A stretch of 64,000 bases of DNA from Nitrospinia bacterium (GTDB lineage: Bacteria > Nitrospinota > Nitrospinia > Nitrospinales > JAJDAT01), in assembly GCA_029261715.1 (NCBI GenBank), contig JAJDAT010000014.1, positions 186,001 through 250,000 on the forward strand. The letters are read 5' to 3'. Under the pieces are notes generated by a model. The model was not told the DNA's origin. It saw only the letters and a list, made by a program, of their open reading frames with translations, and searched no databases. Within the stretch, counting starts at the first letter, position 1. Each line of letters starts with the position of its first letter. The position numbers and the translations under genes are program-made. Of this stretch, positions 19,379 to 63,400 are shown one piece after another.

Positions 19379-20329
19379 CTATCTTATTTTTTGATTTCGT
19401 CTTTTTTTGACTCTGTCATGAAGTGCTTCTATACGACCTAGTAGCGGCCCAACTTCATCGACAGCATCGGCATTCTCATAAATATATTGAATATGTTCGA
19501 CAGCTCGTTTTAAACGATCATCACGGAAAGTAACCGAAGTTTCCGGAGGTTTGTAATTGCCACCTTGCTCCTCGTTTTTCCCCCAAATCAGCCATCCCGT
19601 ATTTATGCCAAATTTTTCAAATAATCGAACACAGTCTCTAGGCGCTGGAAGACGTTTACCTTCCAGATAATCATTCATGTCGCTTCGCTCTATTCCCGCT
19701 TCGTCGGCAAATCTTTCCCCATCTCCATTTGCATGAACTTTAACTTCTCCGTTTAACCGGCTACCAACTTCAGAAACGTCAATCTGAGATAGTTCCTTAT
19801 CGGCAGAAAAGTCGCTTTCCGTTTCCTCTCCACGCATTGGCCCAGCGCCAGTAGCCATCCAATCTAAACTCACATTATTTTTAAGGCAAAAACTTACAAT
19901 TCTACTTGCAGGAAACTTCCCTTCTTGCTTATAACCTTGCACCGATTGTCTGGCCACTCCTAAAACTCGCGCAATTTCAGAATCAGTACGTCCCACTAAA
20001 TTGGCTGATTTGCGAATCCTATCTGCAACCAAATCATAAGGAGCAAAAGAATGTTCTTCTTGGTTTTCTCCACGACCAACTAGAGCTTGAGAATCAATTT
20101 CTCGTTTAAATTCATTAACTTGACCGGCCCCCATCAACAAATATTCTGGAGATTGATCACAAATTTTAGCAATTTCTTTTAGGGTTTCTACTGTTGGACT
20201 GTTCTTATCGCTTTCGTAATAAACGACAGTCCGCTTCGAAATCCCCAGAAAATTAGCCAATTGTTCTTGAGTCAGATTATTGCGTTTTCTAGACTCTCTA
20301 ATCCTGGACCCAAGTGAATTTTTTTTCAT
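19379..20329 (-). CDS. Phage-type repressor with three HTH units
   Basis: From the ATG at 20329 the protein has 316 residues. An XRE helix-turn-helix covers residues 5-64 (LTQEQLANFLGISKRTVVYY). A CI-repressor-like HTH covers 100-164 (RTDSEIARVLGVARQSVQGY). A third, more diverged unit covers about 186-250 (FADEAGIERSDMNDYLEGKR). Each unit ends in a similar segment: EYLLMGAG, LDWMATGAG, TGWLIWGKN. No Ser-Lys LexA-type peptidase domain is visible. An earlier in-frame ATG at 20368 would add 13 atypical residues. It is divergent from a small HTH gene, as expected for a lysogeny switch. Confidence 0.7.
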   Translation of the reverse strand: MKKNSLGSRIRESRKRNNLTQEQLANFLGISKRTVVYYESDKNSPTVETLKEIAKICDQSPEYLLMGAGQVNEFKREIDSQALVGRGENQEEHSFAPYDLVADRIRKSANLVGRTDSEIARVLGVARQSVQGYKQEGKFPASRIVSFCLKNNVSLDWMATGAGPMRGEETESDFSADKELSQIDVSEVGSRLNGEVKVHANGDGERFADEAGIERSDMNDYLEGKRLPAPRDCVRLFEKFGINTGWLIWGKNEEQGGNYKPPETSVTFRDDRLKRAVEHIQYIYENADAVDEVGPLLGRIEALHDRVKKRRNQKIR

Positions 20330-20506
20330 TTTATTTCTTGACTTTGAACAAAAAGAGAATAAAATCACAGAAAATCATCACAAACCAAAAATTTGTAATT
20401 TTTTTCCTTATAAAAAAGAAAAATATTACATAAAAAGTAATCATACGGCTGATTCCTTGAAATTAAATCCAGCCATACGAACTAATCGTCATTTTTTTAT
20501 AAAAAC
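20330..20506. promoter_or_regulatory. Divergent control region of the lysogeny switch
   Basis: This 177-base A+T-rich region lies between the divergent repressor and small HTH genes. It holds the inverted repeat ATTAC-N7-GTAAT, the inverted pair GGCTG/CAGCC, and two copies of CATACG near 20442 and 20475. These are candidate operator half-sites. No promoter can be named with confidence. Confidence 0.4.
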
Positions 20507-20950
20507 ATGAAAATAATCAACAAATCCGAAAATGACCGTCGCTGGTTTCTAACCGTTATAAGAGCCAGCTCCAACAAACAAGAAGCAGCGCGGAACTGTG
20601 GGTTCACCTTAAGAACCTTTGATAATTGGATCGAGCGCCATCAGATCAACTGGAGAAACGAACTTCGAAAAGACATTTTCCCTGCCAAAACAAATTTCTT
20701 TAAGTGCATTCAATTAAACTTGTCAAACCTATTTAAAAGCTGTAAGGGGAAAAAGTACATTTTTTTCGGATTTTGCCTAATTATCTCTATTCATTCTCGC
20801 TTAATCAATAAAAATAACGAAATTAATTTATTCAATGCCTTATTCCCATACACTATTGAACGCCCTAATCAAAAATTATTCCGTGACCTAGAGCACAAAA
20901 AGAAAGTTTTTTCAGAGTTAAAAAAAATCGACTCGAACCAAGAAATGTAA
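20507..20950 (+). CDS. Small HTH protein with hydrophobic segment
   Basis: A 147-residue protein. Residues 10-50 (SNKQEAARNCGFTLRTFDNWIERH) look like a Fis/HTH-type DNA-binding unit. Residues 82-95 (KKYIFFGFCLIISIHS) are hydrophobic and could be a membrane segment. It is divergent from the repressor, where early phage regulators such as Cro or CII lie. The combination of HTH and membrane segment is unusual and no family is recognised. Confidence 0.5.
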   Translation: MKIINKSENDRRWFLTVIRASSNKQEAARNCGFTLRTFDNWIERHQINWRNELRKDIFPAKTNFFKCIQLNLSNLFKSCKGKKYIFFGFCLIISIHSRLINKNNEINLFNALFPYTIERPNQKLFRDLEHKKKVFSELKKIDSNQEM

Positions 20951-21061
20951 CAAACAGTTCACAAAAAGAACTAACTTAGCCGGTAAGGACTGCTAAATAG
21001 GCAATTGTTTTTCTTACTATAGATTATGAAAAACTTACAAAATCAAACGAAAACCCAATAT

Positions 21062-21210
21062 GCGGGCGATAACCGCCTGCTAGACCCTAAATCTTTGGTC
21101 ACCTCCTTCCAAAGTTTTAGGGTCTATAAAAAATTTACATTTAGAGTTCTTTCTCCAGACGGCAGTCCTCAATTTATTCCCTCCCATAAAAGGGGGACTA
21201 CCATCTGGAG
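21062..21210 (+). ncRNA. Cluster of stem-loops with anti-Shine-Dalgarno loop, candidate small RNA
   Basis: Three stems follow one another. Stem 1 is GCGGGCG/CGCCTGC (21062-21080). Stem 2 is AGACCCTAAA/TTTAGGGTCT, then one T-T mismatch, then CTTTGG/CCAAAG (21082-21125), with loop TCACCTCCTT. Stem 3 pairs 21153-21168 with 21195-21210 at 14 of 16 positions around a loop containing CCCTCCC. The stem 2 loop equals the conserved 3' tail of 16S rRNA. Read from the minus strand the same loop is AAGGAGGTGA, a full Shine-Dalgarno sequence. A 63-codon + frame (21026-21217) also covers the region, as does a 35-codon minus frame, so coding use is not excluded. No clear promoter or terminator is seen. Confidence 0.45.
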
Positions 21211-21217
21211 TATTTAA

Positions 21218-21552: not shown

Positions 21553-21918
21553 ATGATGCTAAAAAAAAGTTTCGGACAATTAGAAATGATTCCTCAAACA
21601 CAGGAAGAAAAATATCTATTAGCCAATTTTTTGGAATGCGGAGAACAATATGAAACTCGATTGGTCAACTCCAGCATTCAAATTCATACTAGTCCCAGCT
21701 CAAAATATCTTTCCGTTAAACAATGCGCTCGTATGTTGGAATTTAACGAAGAATCATTGCGTCGAAAATGCCGAAGAGGTGAAATTCCTCACCGTAAGGT
21801 TGGTAAGCGGATTTTATTTATACGAGTAGAAATTGAAAATTGGATCGACTCCAAAGACACCGCTTTCGACCCTAGTTTTAGGGCAAATAAGATATTAAGC
21901 GAAGTCATGAACGGATAA
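21553..21918 (+). CDS. Excisionase-like HTH protein
   Basis: A 121-residue protein whose residues 50-98 form a MerR/excisionase-type helix-turn-helix (SVKQCARMLEFNEESLRRKC then RRGEIPHRKVGKRILF, ending in IENWID). Such proteins bend DNA to direct excision or act as transcription regulators. The N-terminal 45 residues are specific to this protein. The integrase gene begins 47 bases downstream, so the two are probably co-expressed. Confidence 0.7.
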   Translation: MMLKKSFGQLEMIPQTQEEKYLLANFLECGEQYETRLVNSSIQIHTSPSSKYLSVKQCARMLEFNEESLRRKCRRGEIPHRKVGKRILFIRVEIENWIDSKDTAFDPSFRANKILSEVMNG

Positions 21919-21965: not shown

Positions 21966-23024
21966 ATGTTTAAAAAAAAAGGGAGTAAAAATTGGTGGAT
22001 AAAAGTTAGGCACCGTGGAAGAGTCATTGAAAAATCCACCGAAACTCCCAATAAAGAATTAGCGAAAAAAATCGAAGCAAAAGTACGAGTAGACTTGGTC
22101 GAAGAAAAATATTTCGATTCCCGAGAATCTCTACATCTAACGCTTGCCGAACTTTTAGATATGTACGATCAAAAACATTCGGCTACTAAAAAGAAACCGC
22201 AAGTACGTAAAAACGAAAACTTTTTAATCAGAAGATTCCGTGAATTACTGGGGAAAGAAAAAGCAAACGACCTTTCGCCTGCTCGAATTGAAGATTACAT
22301 GACTCAAAGGCGCGTAGAAGGAAAACGCTCCATAAAGACTAATGGAGAAATCAAGCGCATTGGAGATATTTCAGAAGTCACTCTTCATCACGAGCTGGCA
22401 TTAGTTAAACACGCTTACTACTTGGCTATTAATAAGTGGGGAATATTGAAACACAATCCATTTGATTCTGTAACTTTACCGAAAGGGGATAAACAAAGAA
22501 CGCGATATTTATCCGTTGAAGAATCGATAAAAGTCGTAAAAGAATCTCCCGATTGGCTTCGACCTATGGTAATATTGGGTTTGGATACTGGGCTTCGGCT
22601 AACCAATATTTGTGAGCTTGCTTGGAATCAAGTAGATTTTTTTTCGAAAACTATTCAAATCGAAAAAACTAAAAACCAAGAAGGCGTGTGCATTCCCATG
22701 ACGGATAGGGCTTTAAAAACCATAAAAGGTTTTAGAAGAGACGATTCTTTTTCGAACATTTGGGTTTTCGGCAAAAAATATAAAAGAGATCAAGTATCAA
22801 AAGCCTTCAAGAGAGTATGTCGGAGACTACAATTAGACGACGTAACTTTTCATACTTTGAGGCATTCGTTTTGTTCGCATTTAGCTATCAACGGCGCCAA
22901 CTTAAATGACATTGCATCCGTAGCAGGACATAAGGATCTTCGTAGCGCACGTCGATATTCTCATTTAAACAGTGACAGAAAGAGAGAGGTGATAAAGGGT
23001 CTAGAAGCGGGTCGTCAAATTTAA
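21966..23024 (+). CDS. Tyrosine recombinase / phage integrase
   Basis: A 352-residue integrase. The N-terminal 50 residues form an arm-binding-like region, a SAM-like core-binding domain lies at about 55-160, and the catalytic domain at 175-340. The catalytic residues Arg211 (GLDTGLRLTNI), His296 and Arg299 (HTLRH), His322 (AGHKD) and Tyr331 are present, so it appears active. The gene ends 80 bases from the 3' end of a tRNA-Ala gene, the usual arrangement for integration into a tRNA. Confidence 0.9.
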   Translation: MFKKKGSKNWWIKVRHRGRVIEKSTETPNKELAKKIEAKVRVDLVEEKYFDSRESLHLTLAELLDMYDQKHSATKKKPQVRKNENFLIRRFRELLGKEKANDLSPARIEDYMTQRRVEGKRSIKTNGEIKRIGDISEVTLHHELALVKHAYYLAINKWGILKHNPFDSVTLPKGDKQRTRYLSVEESIKVVKESPDWLRPMVILGLDTGLRLTNICELAWNQVDFFSKTIQIEKTKNQEGVCIPMTDRALKTIKGFRRDDSFSNIWVFGKKYKRDQVSKAFKRVCRRLQLDDVTFHTLRHSFCSHLAINGANLNDIASVAGHKDLRSARRYSHLNSDRKREVIKGLEAGRQI

Positions 23025-23104: not shown

Positions 23105-23177
<73 letters not shown>

Positions 23178-36141: not shown

Positions 36142-37068
36142 TTATCCCTTAACAGGCCCAAACTGCAACCCCAACGGCATCAAAAATTGAAGCTTAGGAA
36201 AAGTTAATTGTCCTAAGGTTTGATTTAATCTTCCTGCCCATTTATTCTCAAGAATAAAATCTAACAAACTGGATTCCTTTTCAGGGAAAACCACGCTGGG
36301 CCTTTTGGTCAATCCTAATGATTTTTGTAAAAACTCTAAGCTGTCTTCGAAACCACCTAACTGATCGACTAACTTATATTCTAAAGCTTGCCGTCCTGAA
36401 AAGATTCTTCCATCAGCGACTTTTTTAACGTCATCAATATTAAGATCACGACCTGCCGAAATAGCTTCAATGAATTGGCTATGAACATCGTCCACAACCG
36501 ATTGCAATAACACATTTTCCTCATCAGTCATAGGACGAACCACGGAACCGGCATCTTTAAATTTACCAGCTTTAATCACCATAGGTTTCAATCCTATTTT
36601 CTGAATCAGCTCTTCAACATTTGAAAACGCCATAATCACTCCAATACTGCCAGTGAGCGTTCCCGGATTAGCCACGATATGACTGGCTGAACTAGCTATG
36701 TAATAGCCGCCCGAGGCGGCTACACTTCCTAAAGACGCTACTATTTTTTTTACTTTCCGGGTTTTTAAGACCTCGGAATATATCTCTTGGGAAGGCCCAA
36801 CAGAGCCTCCCGGAGAATCAATTCGCAAAATAATAGCGCCAACGGACGGATCGTTCCGATAGTCGACAATCTGTTCAACAATTTCCCGACTATCAGAAAT
36901 AACTCCTTGAACCTCAACAACAGCCACTTTATTTTTAGCCATTGGAGACCCACCGTCTAAATAAGACCTGAGCCCGCTCGCCAATCCATATATGGCTAAC
37001 ACCCCTAAGCAAAACATTAAGAAAATCTTCGTGAAAGATCTTCTCGGAGCTAAAGGAGTCAGTTCCAT
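36142..37068 (-). CDS. sppA: Signal peptide peptidase SppA, S49 family
   Basis: A 308-residue membrane-anchored serine protease that degrades leftover signal peptides. It has one N-terminal membrane segment (about 14-32). Nucleophile Ser119 is in VAASGGYY and general base Lys171 in AGKFKDAGS, with the 52-residue spacing seen in short bacterial SppA. 'LRIDSPGGSV' at 81-90 is conserved. It is the short, single-domain form. It follows rpsA by 30 bases. Confidence 0.95.
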   Translation of the reverse strand: MELTPLAPRRSFTKIFLMFCLGVLAIYGLASGLRSYLDGGSPMAKNKVAVVEVQGVISDSREIVEQIVDYRNDPSVGAIILRIDSPGGSVGPSQEIYSEVLKTRKVKKIVASLGSVAASGGYYIASSASHIVANPGTLTGSIGVIMAFSNVEELIQKIGLKPMVIKAGKFKDAGSVVRPMTDEENVLLQSVVDDVHSQFIEAISAGRDLNIDDVKKVADGRIFSGRQALEYKLVDQLGGFEDSLEFLQKSLGLTKRPSVVFPEKESSLLDFILENKWAGRLNQTLGQLTFPKLQFLMPLGLQFGPVKG

Positions 37069-57400: not shown

Positions 57401-60400
57401 GACCGGAGCTTTGACCGTTGACAGCACGGCTAGTTTTCAAACAGATGTCGACGATAGAGTTATTACCTTGAGTCAAACAAACGCTATTGCTGGAGCGATT
57501 ACACTCAATACCCAGACCACGGCAAGTCACGCTGGTCACGTCACGATCAATAATGGCACGACCAATTTAATTTTAGCCGCATCCAATATTGCCGGAACTT
57601 TGGACGCCACCGTCTCCGGAACAATCACTGATACTGGCGCTCTCGTAGTAAACAGCGTAGCGACGTTTGCGGCAGGAGCTGGAAACAATATCACCTTAGA
57701 CACAGGAACCAACAACTTTAGTACCGTAGTTATCACTACCGGCAACGACGTAACGCTAGTCGATACCAACTCGATCATTTTGGGCGCATCGACTGTATCC
57801 GGAACTTTGGGAGTTACGGTTTCCGGAACGATTACGGAATCTGGAGTGTTAGCCGTAACAAACACCGCAACGTTTGATTCCGGTGGAACCAACGCGACCG
57901 CAAATGCGATCACCTTAAATAGCAACACGCATAACTTCAGCACAATTGCAATTACTCAAGGCGGGAATGTTTTGGTGGCAGACTCCAACGGAATTATCTT
58001 GGGAGCGTCAACCGTATCGGGAATTCTGGGCGTAACAGCGGCAGGTAGCATCACCAATTCTGGAGATTTAGCGGTAACGGGTGTTGGAACATTCACGGTA
58101 GGAAACACTCAGTCGATTACTCTAAATAGCACTGGGAATAACTTTACCGCAACCCCGGTATTTCTCGCCAGCGGTGGAACCATTGCTAATGTTACGATTA
58201 CAGACACAACAGCGCTAGCCTTTGGAGCTCTAACCTTAACCGGAAATTTGACGATCACTTCCGGTGGAGCTGTCACACAAACCGGAGCGCTTGTAGTTCC
58301 CGGAACCACAACCATCTCCGCTAGCGGTCAGAATGTAACCTTTAATAATTCATCAAATAATTTTGGAACGATCGGAGTCACTGGAGTCATTGTTGCGATT
58401 CAAGACACCAACTCCGTTATCCTGGGAGCTTCAACAGTATCAGGAACTTTAGGCGTCACCGCTTCTGGTACGATCACTCAGTCCGGAGTGTTGGCAATAA
58501 CCGGAGCGGCGACCTTTGATGCAGGCGGAACAAACGCCACGATCAACGCAATCACCTTAAACACCAGCTCCAACAATTTCAGCACAGTCGTTATCACACA
58601 GGGCGGAAACGTTTTGGTAGACGACTCTAATGGAATCATCTTAGGAACTTCTACAGTATCCGGAACTTTGGGCGTCACCGCTTCTGGAACAATCACTCAG
58701 TCCGGCGTGTTAGCGGTAACCGGAGCGGCAACCTTTGACGCGGGAGGAACCAACGCAACCGCTAACGCGATCACCTTAAATACCAGCTCCAATAACTTCA
58801 GTACATTTGCCGTAACACAGGGCGGAAATATTTTGGTAGACGACTCCAATGGAATCATTCTAGGAGCGTCGACCGTCTCCGGAACTTTGGGCGTCACCGC
58901 TTCTGGAACAATCACTCAGTCCGGCGTGTTAGCCGTTACCGGAGCCGCAACGTTTGACGCGGGCGGAACCAATGTCACAACCAACGCAATCACTTTAAAC
59001 ACCAGTTCCAATAACTTCAGTACCATTGTCGTCACACAGGGTGGAAACGTTTTGATAGACGACTCTAACGGAATCATACTCGGGGCTTCAACCGTTTCCG
59101 GAATCTTGGGAGTTACGGCTTCTGGAACCATTACCCAGTCCGGTGTGTTAGCAGTCACTGGAGCGGCAACTTTTGATTCTGGCGGCACCAACGCCACAGC
59201 TAACGCGATCACCTTAAACACTAGTTCCAACAACTTCAGTACATTCGCCGTTACGCAAGGCGGAAACGCTTTGGTAGACGACTCGAACGGAATCATCTTA
59301 GGAGCTTCTACCGTATCCGGAACTTTAGGCATTACGGCTTCTGGAACCATCACTCAGTCCGGCGTATTAGCGGTAACCGGAGCGGCAACCTTTGACGCGG
59401 GAGGGACAAATGCTACCGCTAACGCGATCACCTTAAACACTAGTTCCAATAACTTCAGTACTTTTGCCGTCACGCAGGGCGGAAACGTACTGGTAGACGA
59501 CTCCAATGGAATCATTTTAGGAGCGTCGACCGTCTCCGGAACTTTAGGCGTTACCGCATCAGGGACTATTACCCAATCTGGAGTGTTAGCCATAACAAAC
59601 GCCGCGACCTTTGATTCAGGCGGAACCAACGCCACAACTAACGCTATCACTTTAAACACCAGTTCCAATAATTTCAGCACAGTGGTGATCACACAAGGCG
59701 GAAACGTTTTGGTAGACGACTCTAACGGAATCATCTTAGGAGCCTCAACCATTTCCGGAACTTTAGGCGTTACCGCATCAGGGACTATTACCCAATCTGG
59801 AGTGATAGCCATAACAAACGCCGCGACCTTTGATTCAGGCGGAACCAACGCCACAACTAACGCAATCACTTTAAATACCAGCGCCAACAACTTCAGTACA
59901 TTTGCCATCACACAGGGCGGAAACGTTTTAGTAGACGACTCCAATGGCATCATCCTTGGAACGTCTACGATTTCCGGAACCTTAGGAGTTACGGCTTCCG
60001 GAACCATCACTCAGTCAGGAGTGTTAGCGATCACTGGAGCTGCAACGTTTGGCGCAGGTGGAACAAATGCAACCGCTAACGCAATCACCTTAAACACCAG
60101 TTCCAATAACTTCAGCACAATCGTTATCACGCAAGGCGGGAATGTATTGGTAGACGACTCCAACGGAATCATATTAGGAACATCCACCGTATCCGGAACC
60201 CTGGGAGTTACGGCTTCTGGAACGATCACCCAATCTGGAGTGTTAGCGATAACAAACACCACGACCTTTGATTCTGGCGGAACCAACGCCACTGCCAACG
60301 CAATTACCTTAAATACCAGTTCCAATAGCTTCAGCACAGTCGTCATCACACAGGGCGGAAACGTTTTGGTAGACGACTCCAATGGAATCATCTTAGGAGC

Positions 60401-63400
60401 CTCAACCATTTCCGGAACTTTAGGCCTTACGGCTTCTGGAACGATCACTCAGTCCGGCGTTTTAGCGGTAACTGGAGCGGCGACCTTTGACGCTGGCGGA
60501 ACTAACGCTACAACCAACGCAATCACTTTAAACACAAGTTCTAACAATTTCAGTACATTTGCCGTCACACAGGGCGGAAACGTGTTGGTAGACGACTCCA
60601 ATGAAATCATTTTAGGAGCTTCCACTATTTCCGGAACCTTGGGAGTTACGGCTTCTGGAACGATCACCCAATCTGGAGTGTTAGCCGTAACAAACACCGC
60701 GACCTTTGATTCTGGCGGAACCAACGCCACAGCTAACGCAATCACCCTAAACACCAGTTCCAATAACTTCAGCACAATCGTTATCACGCAAGGCGGAAAC
60801 GTGTTGGTAGACGACTCCAACGGAATCATCTTAGGAGCGTCGACGATTTCTGGAACCTTGGGAGTTACAGCCTCAGGAACCATCACCCAGTCAGAGGTTC
60901 AGGCAGTCACCGGAGCTGCAACGTTTGACGCGGGAGGAACAAACGCAACCGCTAACGCGATCACCTTAAACACCAGCGCCAACAACTTCAGCACAGTCGT
61001 CATCACACAGAGCGGAAACGTTTTAGTAGACGACTCTAATGGTATTATTTTAGGAGCGTCGACGATTTCTGGAACCTTGGGGGTTACGGCTTCTGGGACG
61101 ATCACTCAGTCTGGCGTGTTAGCAGTTACCGGAGCGGTAACGTTTGACGCGGGAGGAACTAACGCTACCGCTAACGCCATTACTTTAAACACCAGTTCCA
61201 ACAACTTCAGTACAGTCGTCATCACACAGAGCGGAAACGTTTTGGTAGACGACTCTAATGGTATTATTTTAGGAGCGTCGACGATTTCTGGAACCTTGGG
61301 AGTTACGGCTTCCGGAACCATTACCCAATCTGGAGTGTTAGCGGTAACTGGAGCGGCGACCTTTGACGCTGGCGGAACCAACGCCACAGCTGACGCGATC
61401 ACCTTAAACACCAGCGCCAACAACTTTAGTACTTTTGCCGTGACACAAGGCGGGAACGTTTTAGTAGACGACTCTAACGGAATTATTTTAGGAGCCTCAA
61501 CAATATCCGGAACCTTAGGCGTAACGTCATCTGGAACGATTACTGAATCTGGAGTACTCGCAGTAACTGGAACCGCAACGTTTGATTCTGGCGGCACTAA
61601 CGCAACCGCTAACGCAATCACCTTAAACACCAGTTCCAACAATTTCAGCACAGTCGTCATCACACAGGGCGGAAACGTTTTAATAGACGACTCTAACGGA
61701 ATCATTTTAGGAGCGTCAACAATATCCGGAGCCTTAGGCGTCACCGCTTCTGGAACGATCACCCAATCTGGAGTGTTAGCGATAACAAACACCGCGACCT
61801 TTGATTCTGGCGGAACCAACGCCACTGCCAACGCAATTACCTTAAATACCAGCTCCAATAGCTTCAACACAGTCGTCATCACACAGGGCGGGAATGTATT
61901 GGTCTCTGATTCTAACGGAATCATTTTAGGAGCTTCAATAGTATCCGGAACCTTGGGAGTTACGGCTTCAGGAACAATTACTCAATCTGGAGTTCTCACG
62001 ATCACCGGGGCGGCAACCTTTGATTCCGGCGGAACAAACGCAACCGCTAACGCGATTACTTTAAATACCAGTTCCAACAACTTCAACACATTTGCCGTGA
62101 CACAGGGCGGAAACGTATTGGTCGCGGACTCTAACGGAATTATCTTGGGAGCGTCCACAATTTCCGGAACCTTGAGCGTAACAGCATCCGGGACGATTAC
62201 CGAGTCTGGAGTTCTCGCAGTAACTGGAACCGCTACATTTGATTCCGGCGGAACCAACGCCACAGCAAACGCCATCACCTTAAACACCAGTACCAATAAT
62301 TTTAGTACGGTATCGATCACACAGGGCGGTAACGTAGCGCTAGCAGATTCGAATGCCATCATCCTCGGCGCGTCTACCGTATCAGGAACTTTGGGCGTAA
62401 CGGCGGGCGGCACGATCACAGACAGCGGAGCTATTGCTGTGACAGGAGCTGCCGCTTTTACCACAAATATTGACGACCGATCCATCATTTTAAATAACGT
62501 CAACGCGCTTGGCGGAGCGATTACTTTTACAACGCAAACAACCGGCGGCACGAACGGCGCTAACATCGTATTGAATAACGGCAATACAGCGATCAACCTG
62601 GCGGCGTTTACGACAGAAGGGAATCTCACGCTGGAAACCACGGCAGCGATAGCCTTGGCTGGACATACGGTCAATGGCAATCTTTCGGTAACAAGCGGTA
62701 ACGCCATCACCCAAACGGCTGCGCTGACGGTTTCGGGAACGTCAACTTTCACAACCAATACTCTTAATAAAGTGATCACGCTGAGTACCGCGACCAATGC
62801 TCTGACTGGCGCGGTGGCCTTCAACACTTTGGGTACGACGGCTAACGTTGTGATCGATAACGGTTCCACAAACTTGGGACTAGCGGCATCCACCGTGCGC
62901 GGTAATTTAACGGTAACGACCACAGGTAACTTATTAGTGAGCGGAGATCAGTCATCAACGGGCGCGGTTTCTTTGACTTCCGGAGCCGATATGAACGTCA
63001 ACGCTAAGATCAATACCACTGCGGGCAACATCATTCTATCGGCCGTTAACGACGTTATTTTCACGGCTCCAGGCGATGTGACCAGCGTAACTGGAGACGT
63101 TACGGTCATAGCAGACAGCGACAACGGCGGCGTGGCGAGCGGCGCGTTGACCATGGCTGCGGGAACTGCAATTGACGCCGGATCGGGCAAGATCGCGCTC
63201 AGCGCAGATGAAGACATTACTTTAGGAAAACTGACTACAACTGACAACTCGTTGACGGCGGTGACATTGACTTCTACTGAAGGCGGTATCGTGGAAGGCG
63301 GAGTGATTGGAACCTGTGGCGGCGGCATTAGCGCGGGATGTAACATCGTCGCTTCTGATGGTCGATTGGTCATCGACGCAGTCACGGGAATTGGCGATGC

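Follow-up and report, generated by a model that had tools for sequence, protein, structure and literature searches.

The window (the whole 64 kb stretch of Nitrospinia DNA that was analysed) contains a cluster of hairpins situated between ORF147 and an excisionase-like gene, which is followed by a tyrosine integrase gene and a tRNA-Ala(GGC). The features of this region are listed below in window coordinates, except for the left att copy.

19379-20329, minus strand: CI/XRE-type repressor gene (listed ORF 19379-20368; start taken as the ATG at 20329), with HTH_3, Phage_CI_repr and PHROG repressor matches
20338-20365, plus strand: promoter-like site TTGACT-16-TAAAAT, directed toward ORF147 and the hairpins (consensus match only, no better than shuffles)
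20507-20950, plus strand: ORF147, the first rightward ORF (ORF call; without relative)
21062-21080, plus strand: H1, 7-bp hairpin GCGGGCG[AUAAC]CGCCUGC, whose loop, AUAAC, is without the anti-Shine-Dalgarno (anti-SD) motif; fold -11.8 kcal/mol, z -3.5
21081-21126, plus strand: H2, 11+6 bp hairpin with a U-U mismatch (21092/21115) and a 10-nt loop; fold -22.9 kcal/mol, z -6.65 on the plus and -5.23 on the minus strand
21099-21108, plus strand: H2 loop, UCACCUCCUU, equal to the 16S rRNA 3' tail of related Nitrospinota (sequence, 16S comparison)
21153-21210, plus strand: H3, hairpin with internal loops and an exposed CCCUCCC; fold -26.7 kcal/mol, z -5.5 on the plus strand
21178-21185, plus strand: H3 loop, UCCCUCCC (sequence, fold)
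21553-21918, plus strand: excisionase-like HTH_17 gene, xis (Pfam HTH_17, 6e-11; PHROG excisionase, 3.7e-8)
21966-23024, plus strand: tyrosine integrase gene, int (Phage_integrase, 3e-29)
23131-23147, no strand: right att core ACCTCTTGAATGCCATT, a 17-nt repeat inside tRNA-Ala(GGC)
G000:C14:183608-183624, no strand, outside the window: left att copy, a 17-nt match to the tRNA anticodon-arm sequence

The att repeats bound an element of ~25.5 kb (G000:C14:183608 to 209147, the right end being window position 23147), which is integrated at tRNA-Ala and encodes an O-like initiator, a DnaC-like loader, contractile-tail genes and the CI-type repressor. With an integrase, an excisionase, a repressor, structural genes and att repeats, it has the components expected of an integrated phage, and the phage-like setting proposed in a preliminary description of this DNA is supported by domain and PHROG matches for the CI-type repressor, excisionase-like gene, integrase and tail genes. 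Because no head or terminase gene was seen among the element proteins scanned, the element may be tail-only (tailocin-like) or a degraded prophage. ORF147 has no relative in genomes of the Nitrospinota phylum or in phages. The promoter-like site that precedes it is one of 4 called where shuffles yield 5.8, and neither a dedicated plus-strand promoter nor a terminator was called at the hairpins in the promoter/terminator scan.

By eye, the integrases of two other Nitrospinota genera (L013 and L014, from G024 and G047) also adjoin a tRNA-Ala with a GGC anticodon, which suggests that this tRNA gene is a reused integration site across Nitrospinota genera. A fragment elsewhere in the source genome (G000:C5:241488-241724) is 57% identical to integrase residues 270-348 and is perhaps the remnant of a related element.

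The hairpin cluster is a real structured element. Over 169 nt, its plus strand folds at -64.8 kcal/mol (z -7.5; none of 200 dinucleotide shuffles was as good) and its minus strand at -66.9 kcal/mol (z -6.3; all 200 dinucleotide shuffles were weaker). After correction for G+C content, no other 150-nt stretch in the 64 kb is as highly structured, whether on the plus or on the minus strand. The three loops are, in order, AUAAC, UCACCUCCUU and UCCCUCCC. The preliminary description had reported a 10+6 bp stem with a T-T mismatch; the hairpin and its mismatch are indeed present, the stem being 11+6 bp, and the neighbouring stem that it had placed at 21153-21210, with CCCTCCC in the loop, was recovered as described.

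The same description had identified the H2 loop with the conserved 3' end of bacterial 16S rRNA. That identity holds for 4 of 77 Nitrospinota genomes, those in which an exact 16S 3'-end pattern was found; the other 73, the source genome included, had no match to the pattern. The source assembly holds only part of its 16S gene. Hairpins whose stem scores at least 33 and whose loop is 10 nt long are scarce, numbering only 17 in 2.55 Mb of the source genome. The chance that a given 10-mer would occupy such a loop on either strand is thus ~17*2/4^10 = 3e-5, a value that applies to a motif picked post hoc. The motif TCACCTCCTT is not itself enriched, with 8 genome sites vs 17 for the reversed control. 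In a constrained-fold scan of 3,099 CCTCC sites over the 2.55 Mb, the focal hairpins ranked first among pairs with CCTCC loops; as a class, CCTCC-loop hairpins showed no enrichment over permuted motifs in the source genome.

Of the remaining seven TCACCTCCTT sites, one also forms the loop of a stable hairpin, and lies 640 nt upstream of dnaA. The features of this sibling locus are as follows.

L053:12321-12450 (G000:C40:92320-92449), plus strand favoured: sibling RNA region, comprising a double hairpin, a long closing helix and a U-rich tail
L053:12347-12418 (G000:C40), plus strand: two-hairpin core, UCAGAGG-U[UCACCUCCUU]U-CCUCUGA then CAACCG-A-AUGUAG[ACCCCCUCCC]CUGCAU-A-CGGUUG
L053:12355-12364 (G000:C40:92354), plus strand: first-loop motif, UCACCUCCUU

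It is apparent that the two loci share a hairpin order, an identical 10-nt first loop and CCCUCCC in the second loop. The second sibling hairpin begins 10 nt after the first and has the loop ACCCCCUCCC; a long closing helix encloses both hairpins, and its stem is followed by UUUUAUUUUU. The stems are unrelated, and the flanks show no similarity beyond short words. Among the eight loop-proximal pairs, five are doubly changed between the loci, one is constant and two are unpaired in one of the sequences; when the pairing partners are slid, the number of doubly changed pairs falls from 5 to 0-2. A good stem arises by chance around a random site at a rate of ~4.5e-4 per loop size (4.7e-4 and 4.4e-4), so that the sibling stem would be expected with a probability of 7*(4.7e-4+4.4e-4) = ~0.6% for seven sites and two loop sizes, the second hairpin being left aside. 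The adjacent CCCUCCC hairpin makes a chance origin less likely still. The sibling pair is unlisted in the constrained-fold CCTCC scan, we think because its hairpins refold in the short windows used there; a simpler stem scan lists it.

The DnaA encoded beside the sibling is nearest to those of Nitrospina and other Nitrospinota (54-61% identity). On the far side of the sibling are genes for a response regulator, a CI/S24 protein, 180-aa and 114-aa proteins and a PMT protein, and these are syntenic in Nitrospina CR05bin29. Because of this synteny the sibling is assigned to the host chromosome, where the RNA would occupy a variable interval of a conserved block. A prophage origin, considered for the sibling on account of the CI/S24 gene, was dropped, since synteny with L187 places that gene in the conserved host block. 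In L187 the stretch from the regulator to dnaA has no anti-SD hairpin, and CCTCC-loop hairpins elsewhere in 12 dnaA loci are single and scattered. Thus the RNA that the preliminary description had suggested could be phage-borne does have its focal copy in a phage-like element, but the second locus is chromosomal and the design is not purely phage-borne.

The focal DNA has no homologue in the 76 other Nitrospinota genomes, the window's family being confined to the source genome, and comparison with phage records gave nothing beyond chance words. A covariance model of the shared hairpin found only the two training loci in the source genome, and one match (G072, E 0.46) in the 76 others, which was rejected as a chance hit because by eye it is an ordinary SD on the other strand. 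Since the hairpin model finds two loci and CCTCC hairpins are not enriched, the focal and sibling loci are a pair of special loci and not a genome-wide repeat. The preliminary description had proposed that related loci be compared for constant loops and changed stems; no homologues were found to compare, and the expectation is borne out in part by the non-homologous second locus of the same genome.

Integrase matches at E 1e-20 occur in 29 of 77 genomes, the source included. Hairpin scanning of 29 integrase loci, the window's own excluded, revealed a few single CCTCC or GGAGG hairpins and no CCUCC-loop pair like the focal one; nor did such a pair appear when the three closest of these loci were read over their initial 1.3-1.56 kb. 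Integrase peptide scans of viral and genome contigs gave no match, and the 118-aa ORF beside the sibling had none in viral contigs. Three patterns, two of them gapped with two motifs and one for the loop, retrieved at least 329 loci and at least 418 TCACCTCCTT sites from viral contigs; among the viral loci listed (at least 329), none had a stem score of at least 18 at both TCACCTCCTT and a nearby CCTCC. Single hairpins reaching this score were seen at 2 of 101 viral sites with the loop KGGTCACCTCCTTCCM (scores 42 and 20) and at 2 of 27 with the loop GGTTCACCTCCTTTCC, the latter on two contigs of one phage type, as compared with 0 of 56 sites for a scrambled-loop control. These viral lookalikes are too few for a class. 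One (L563:14002-14055; IMGVR_UViG_2802429170_000001) is a terminator-like hairpin. Its loop on the coding strand reads exactly UCACCUCCUU, and it lies upstream of the genes that run up to the large terminase gene in a phage of Firmicutes type. The others (L657:1715-1746 and L667:5312-5343, of one phage type) are perfect 10-bp hairpins with the loop UUCACCUCCUUU, followed by an SD-bearing, G-rich leader.

The plus strand of 21062-21210 is considered, with somewhat better than even confidence, to be the core of a trans-acting anti-SD RNA that would occlude ribosome-binding sites and that has a host sibling. This reading is favoured because the loops are constant while the stems are exchanged. 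According to this proposal, the plus strand would form the structured core of a regulatory RNA that is not translated, either made independently or cut from the early transcript in the interval from ORF147 to xis. Two anti-Shine-Dalgarno copies, UCACCUCCUU and CCCUCCC, would be held as open loops on rigid stems and would base-pair in trans with ribosome-binding sites rich in purines, so excluding the 30S subunit. The host would encode the sibling RNA beside dnaA, with the same loops on unrelated stems. Transcription, the RNA ends, mRNA pairing, repression and a role in lysogeny are steps that we infer.

The effect would be selective because strong GGAGG sites are rare in the source genome, being present in 3.3% of 1,323 first-ATG leaders (crude start calls). 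The predicted targets include the element's DnaC-like loader, tail sheath and tail tube, together with a minority of host genes. Among the leaders listed for ATG-start element genes, 3 of 20 have GGAGG, namely those of the loader, sheath and tube, a weak indication of strong-SD enrichment in the element given 3 of 20 genes and crude start calls. Pairing of the loader leader with loop B is predicted at -13.2 kcal/mol, a level met by 1% of leaders; the sheath and tube leaders are each predicted at -9.3 kcal/mol, a level met by ~5% (loop A) and 6% (loop B). These modelled energies constitute a lead rather than a test. Six further perfect-complement AAGGAGGTGA sites exist in the genome, two of which serve as SDs for ORFs of a useful length; the others lie ahead of a very short frame or of nothing that is clearly a start.

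Known anti-SD RNAs provide the closest comparison. As two papers describe them, the ar14/NfeR1 RNAs have several hairpins in which the anti-SD loops stay constant while the stems vary greatly, and they are reported to occlude ribosome-binding sites (PMC10746234, PMC3927594). The focal RNA would, by analogy, be expected to pair with leaders of the GGAGG type. The focal and sibling loci share with ar14 or "cuckoo" RNA (Rfam RF02344) the combination of constant anti-SD loops and divergent stems. Unlike ar14, which carries CCUCCUCCC in each of three hairpin loops and belongs to alphaproteobacteria, the RNA described here has two anti-SD hairpins, with the loops UCACCUCCUU and CCCUCCC, and a Nitrospinota host, its focal copy residing in a phage-like element. 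The sibling aligns with ar14 over its full length at 22.2 bits (E 0.057 and 0.017), the gathering cut-off being 58.8 bits. A whole-genome ar14 search left the sibling unlisted and returned one match elsewhere (14.3 bits). The focal RNA gave no ar14 match at E<=10, and no Rfam family matched the focal site; it is judged to be ar14-like in design and not a member of ar14. The likeness to alphaproteobacterial anti-SD sRNAs noted in the preliminary description therefore agrees with the cited ar14/NfeR1 papers and with the sub-threshold match at the sibling.

Other RNAs act on ribosome-binding sites by related means. Unpaired CU-rich stretches perform this masking in AbcR2 and in RsaE, a staphylococcal RNA with C-rich loops. 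RNAIII, likewise a staphylococcal RNA with C-rich loops, and AbcR1 are described similarly in one paper (PMC3927594). For AbcR1/AbcR2, RNAIII and RsaE, no sequence or model match exceeded the threshold, RsaE scoring 16.8 bits at the sibling. The E. coli sRNAs such as DicF are likewise prophage-encoded and had no Rfam match at the focal site; we know of no anti-SD loop pair in RNAs of this type. In phages P1 and P7, the c4 RNA blocks a ribosome-binding site by means of sequences that probably lie in loops, according to the review PMC12197685. It has one dedicated target (ant) and specific complementarity, whereas the focal loops are general anti-SD copies.

Several other explanations were weighed against a trans-acting RNA. 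The hairpins might be a cis element of the ORF147-xis-int mRNA, serving as a barrier to processing or decay or shaping xis translation, with the anti-SD loops incidental. The sole good rightward promoter-like site precedes ORF147 and would place the hairpins, the strongest structure of the region, within that transcript. This view, however, leaves unexplained the recurrence of the same 10-nt loop on unrelated stems at a host locus, and the xis and int leaders pair poorly with loop A (predicted -4.0 and -4.5 kcal/mol). More generally, xis, int, ORF147 and the repressor have poor SDs and weak predicted leader pairing, which disfavours a cis role through SD masking. A cis element is accordingly considered unlikely, if the least so of the alternatives. 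Somewhat less probable is a wider proposition, that mobile elements and their hosts have repeatedly come to use literal 16S-tail copies on hairpin loops, with the viral lookalikes (L563; L657 and L667) in the same convergent class. Phage-borne and host-borne mimics of the 16S tail, present in one cell, would then contend with the 30S subunit at ribosome-binding sites or tie up a factor that recognises the 16S tail.

An RNA from the minus strand, with the loops AAGGAGGUGA and GGGAGGG, could act as a 30S decoy or as a sponge for a CsrA-like protein that binds GGA. The focal minus strand does fold well (z -6.3), but the GGGAGGG of stem 3 is base-paired in that fold, and the minus strand does not present several GGA motifs open in loops of a stable fold, as a CsrA sponge would. 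At the sibling, the plus strand folds significantly (z -5.0 to -5.4) and the minus strand does not (z -0.75 to -1.4); for the value of -0.75, 45 of 200 shuffles were as good. Since the sibling folds on the plus strand only, the strand with CCUCC loops is favoured. The preliminary description had left the strand open, observing that two C-A mismatches in stem 3 become G-U pairs on the minus strand. That observation is correct, but H1 and one H3 pair show the opposite, so that pair types do not decide the strand; the preference for plus derives from the sibling fold and the pairing of GGGAGGG on minus. A minus-strand RNA is thus regarded as improbable.

Marginally less credence is given to an element acting as DNA (an origin, operator or recombination site), its palindromes forming cruciforms or single-strand hairpins. 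The proximity of xis and int and the long, near-perfect palindromes would suit such a role. A protein-binding palindrome should keep its stem, however, whereas the two loci have their loops in common and not their stems, and no integrase was seen among the sibling's neighbours. Transcription terminators with chance loops are very improbable: the L563 hairpin is terminator-like with the same loop, and UUUUAUUUUU follows the sibling closing stem, yet neither H2 nor H3 has a U tract after it, whichever strand is read (UAAAAAA lies downstream of H2 and UAUUUAAG downstream of H3), a G+C-rich stem with an immediate U tract is absent at both, and the scan calls no terminator there. Chance or decayed coding sequence, in the form of an open 63-aa frame at 21026-21217, is the least credible, the frame having no SD, no Pfam match and, by tblastn at E 1, no counterpart in phages, and the fold being equalled by no shuffle.

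If the trans-acting RNA operates as proposed, the anti-SD "cuckoo" design would not be confined to alphaproteobacteria and would occur on both the host and mobile-element sides of one cell. An integrated element would then regulate translation via a generic copy of the sequence with which the ribosome itself recognises mRNA, with the rarity of strong SDs in the source genome providing selectable targets. A literature search found no phage-borne hairpin RNA bearing the 16S tail, and a limited one found no work on Nitrospinota sRNAs. The second, host-borne anti-SD double hairpin beside dnaA goes beyond the preliminary description. The anti-SD loop design in alphaproteobacteria and the blocking of ribosome-binding sites by the phage c4 RNA are described in the papers cited here.

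Two other structured stretches were observed on the minus strand of the window. Repetitive units with a hairpin-forming CCTCC (agcggt..CCTCCCGC..accgct) occur at least four times at 58747-61156, and the second most structured minus-strand stretch lies at 36691-36990 (150-nt windows starting from 36691 to 36841).
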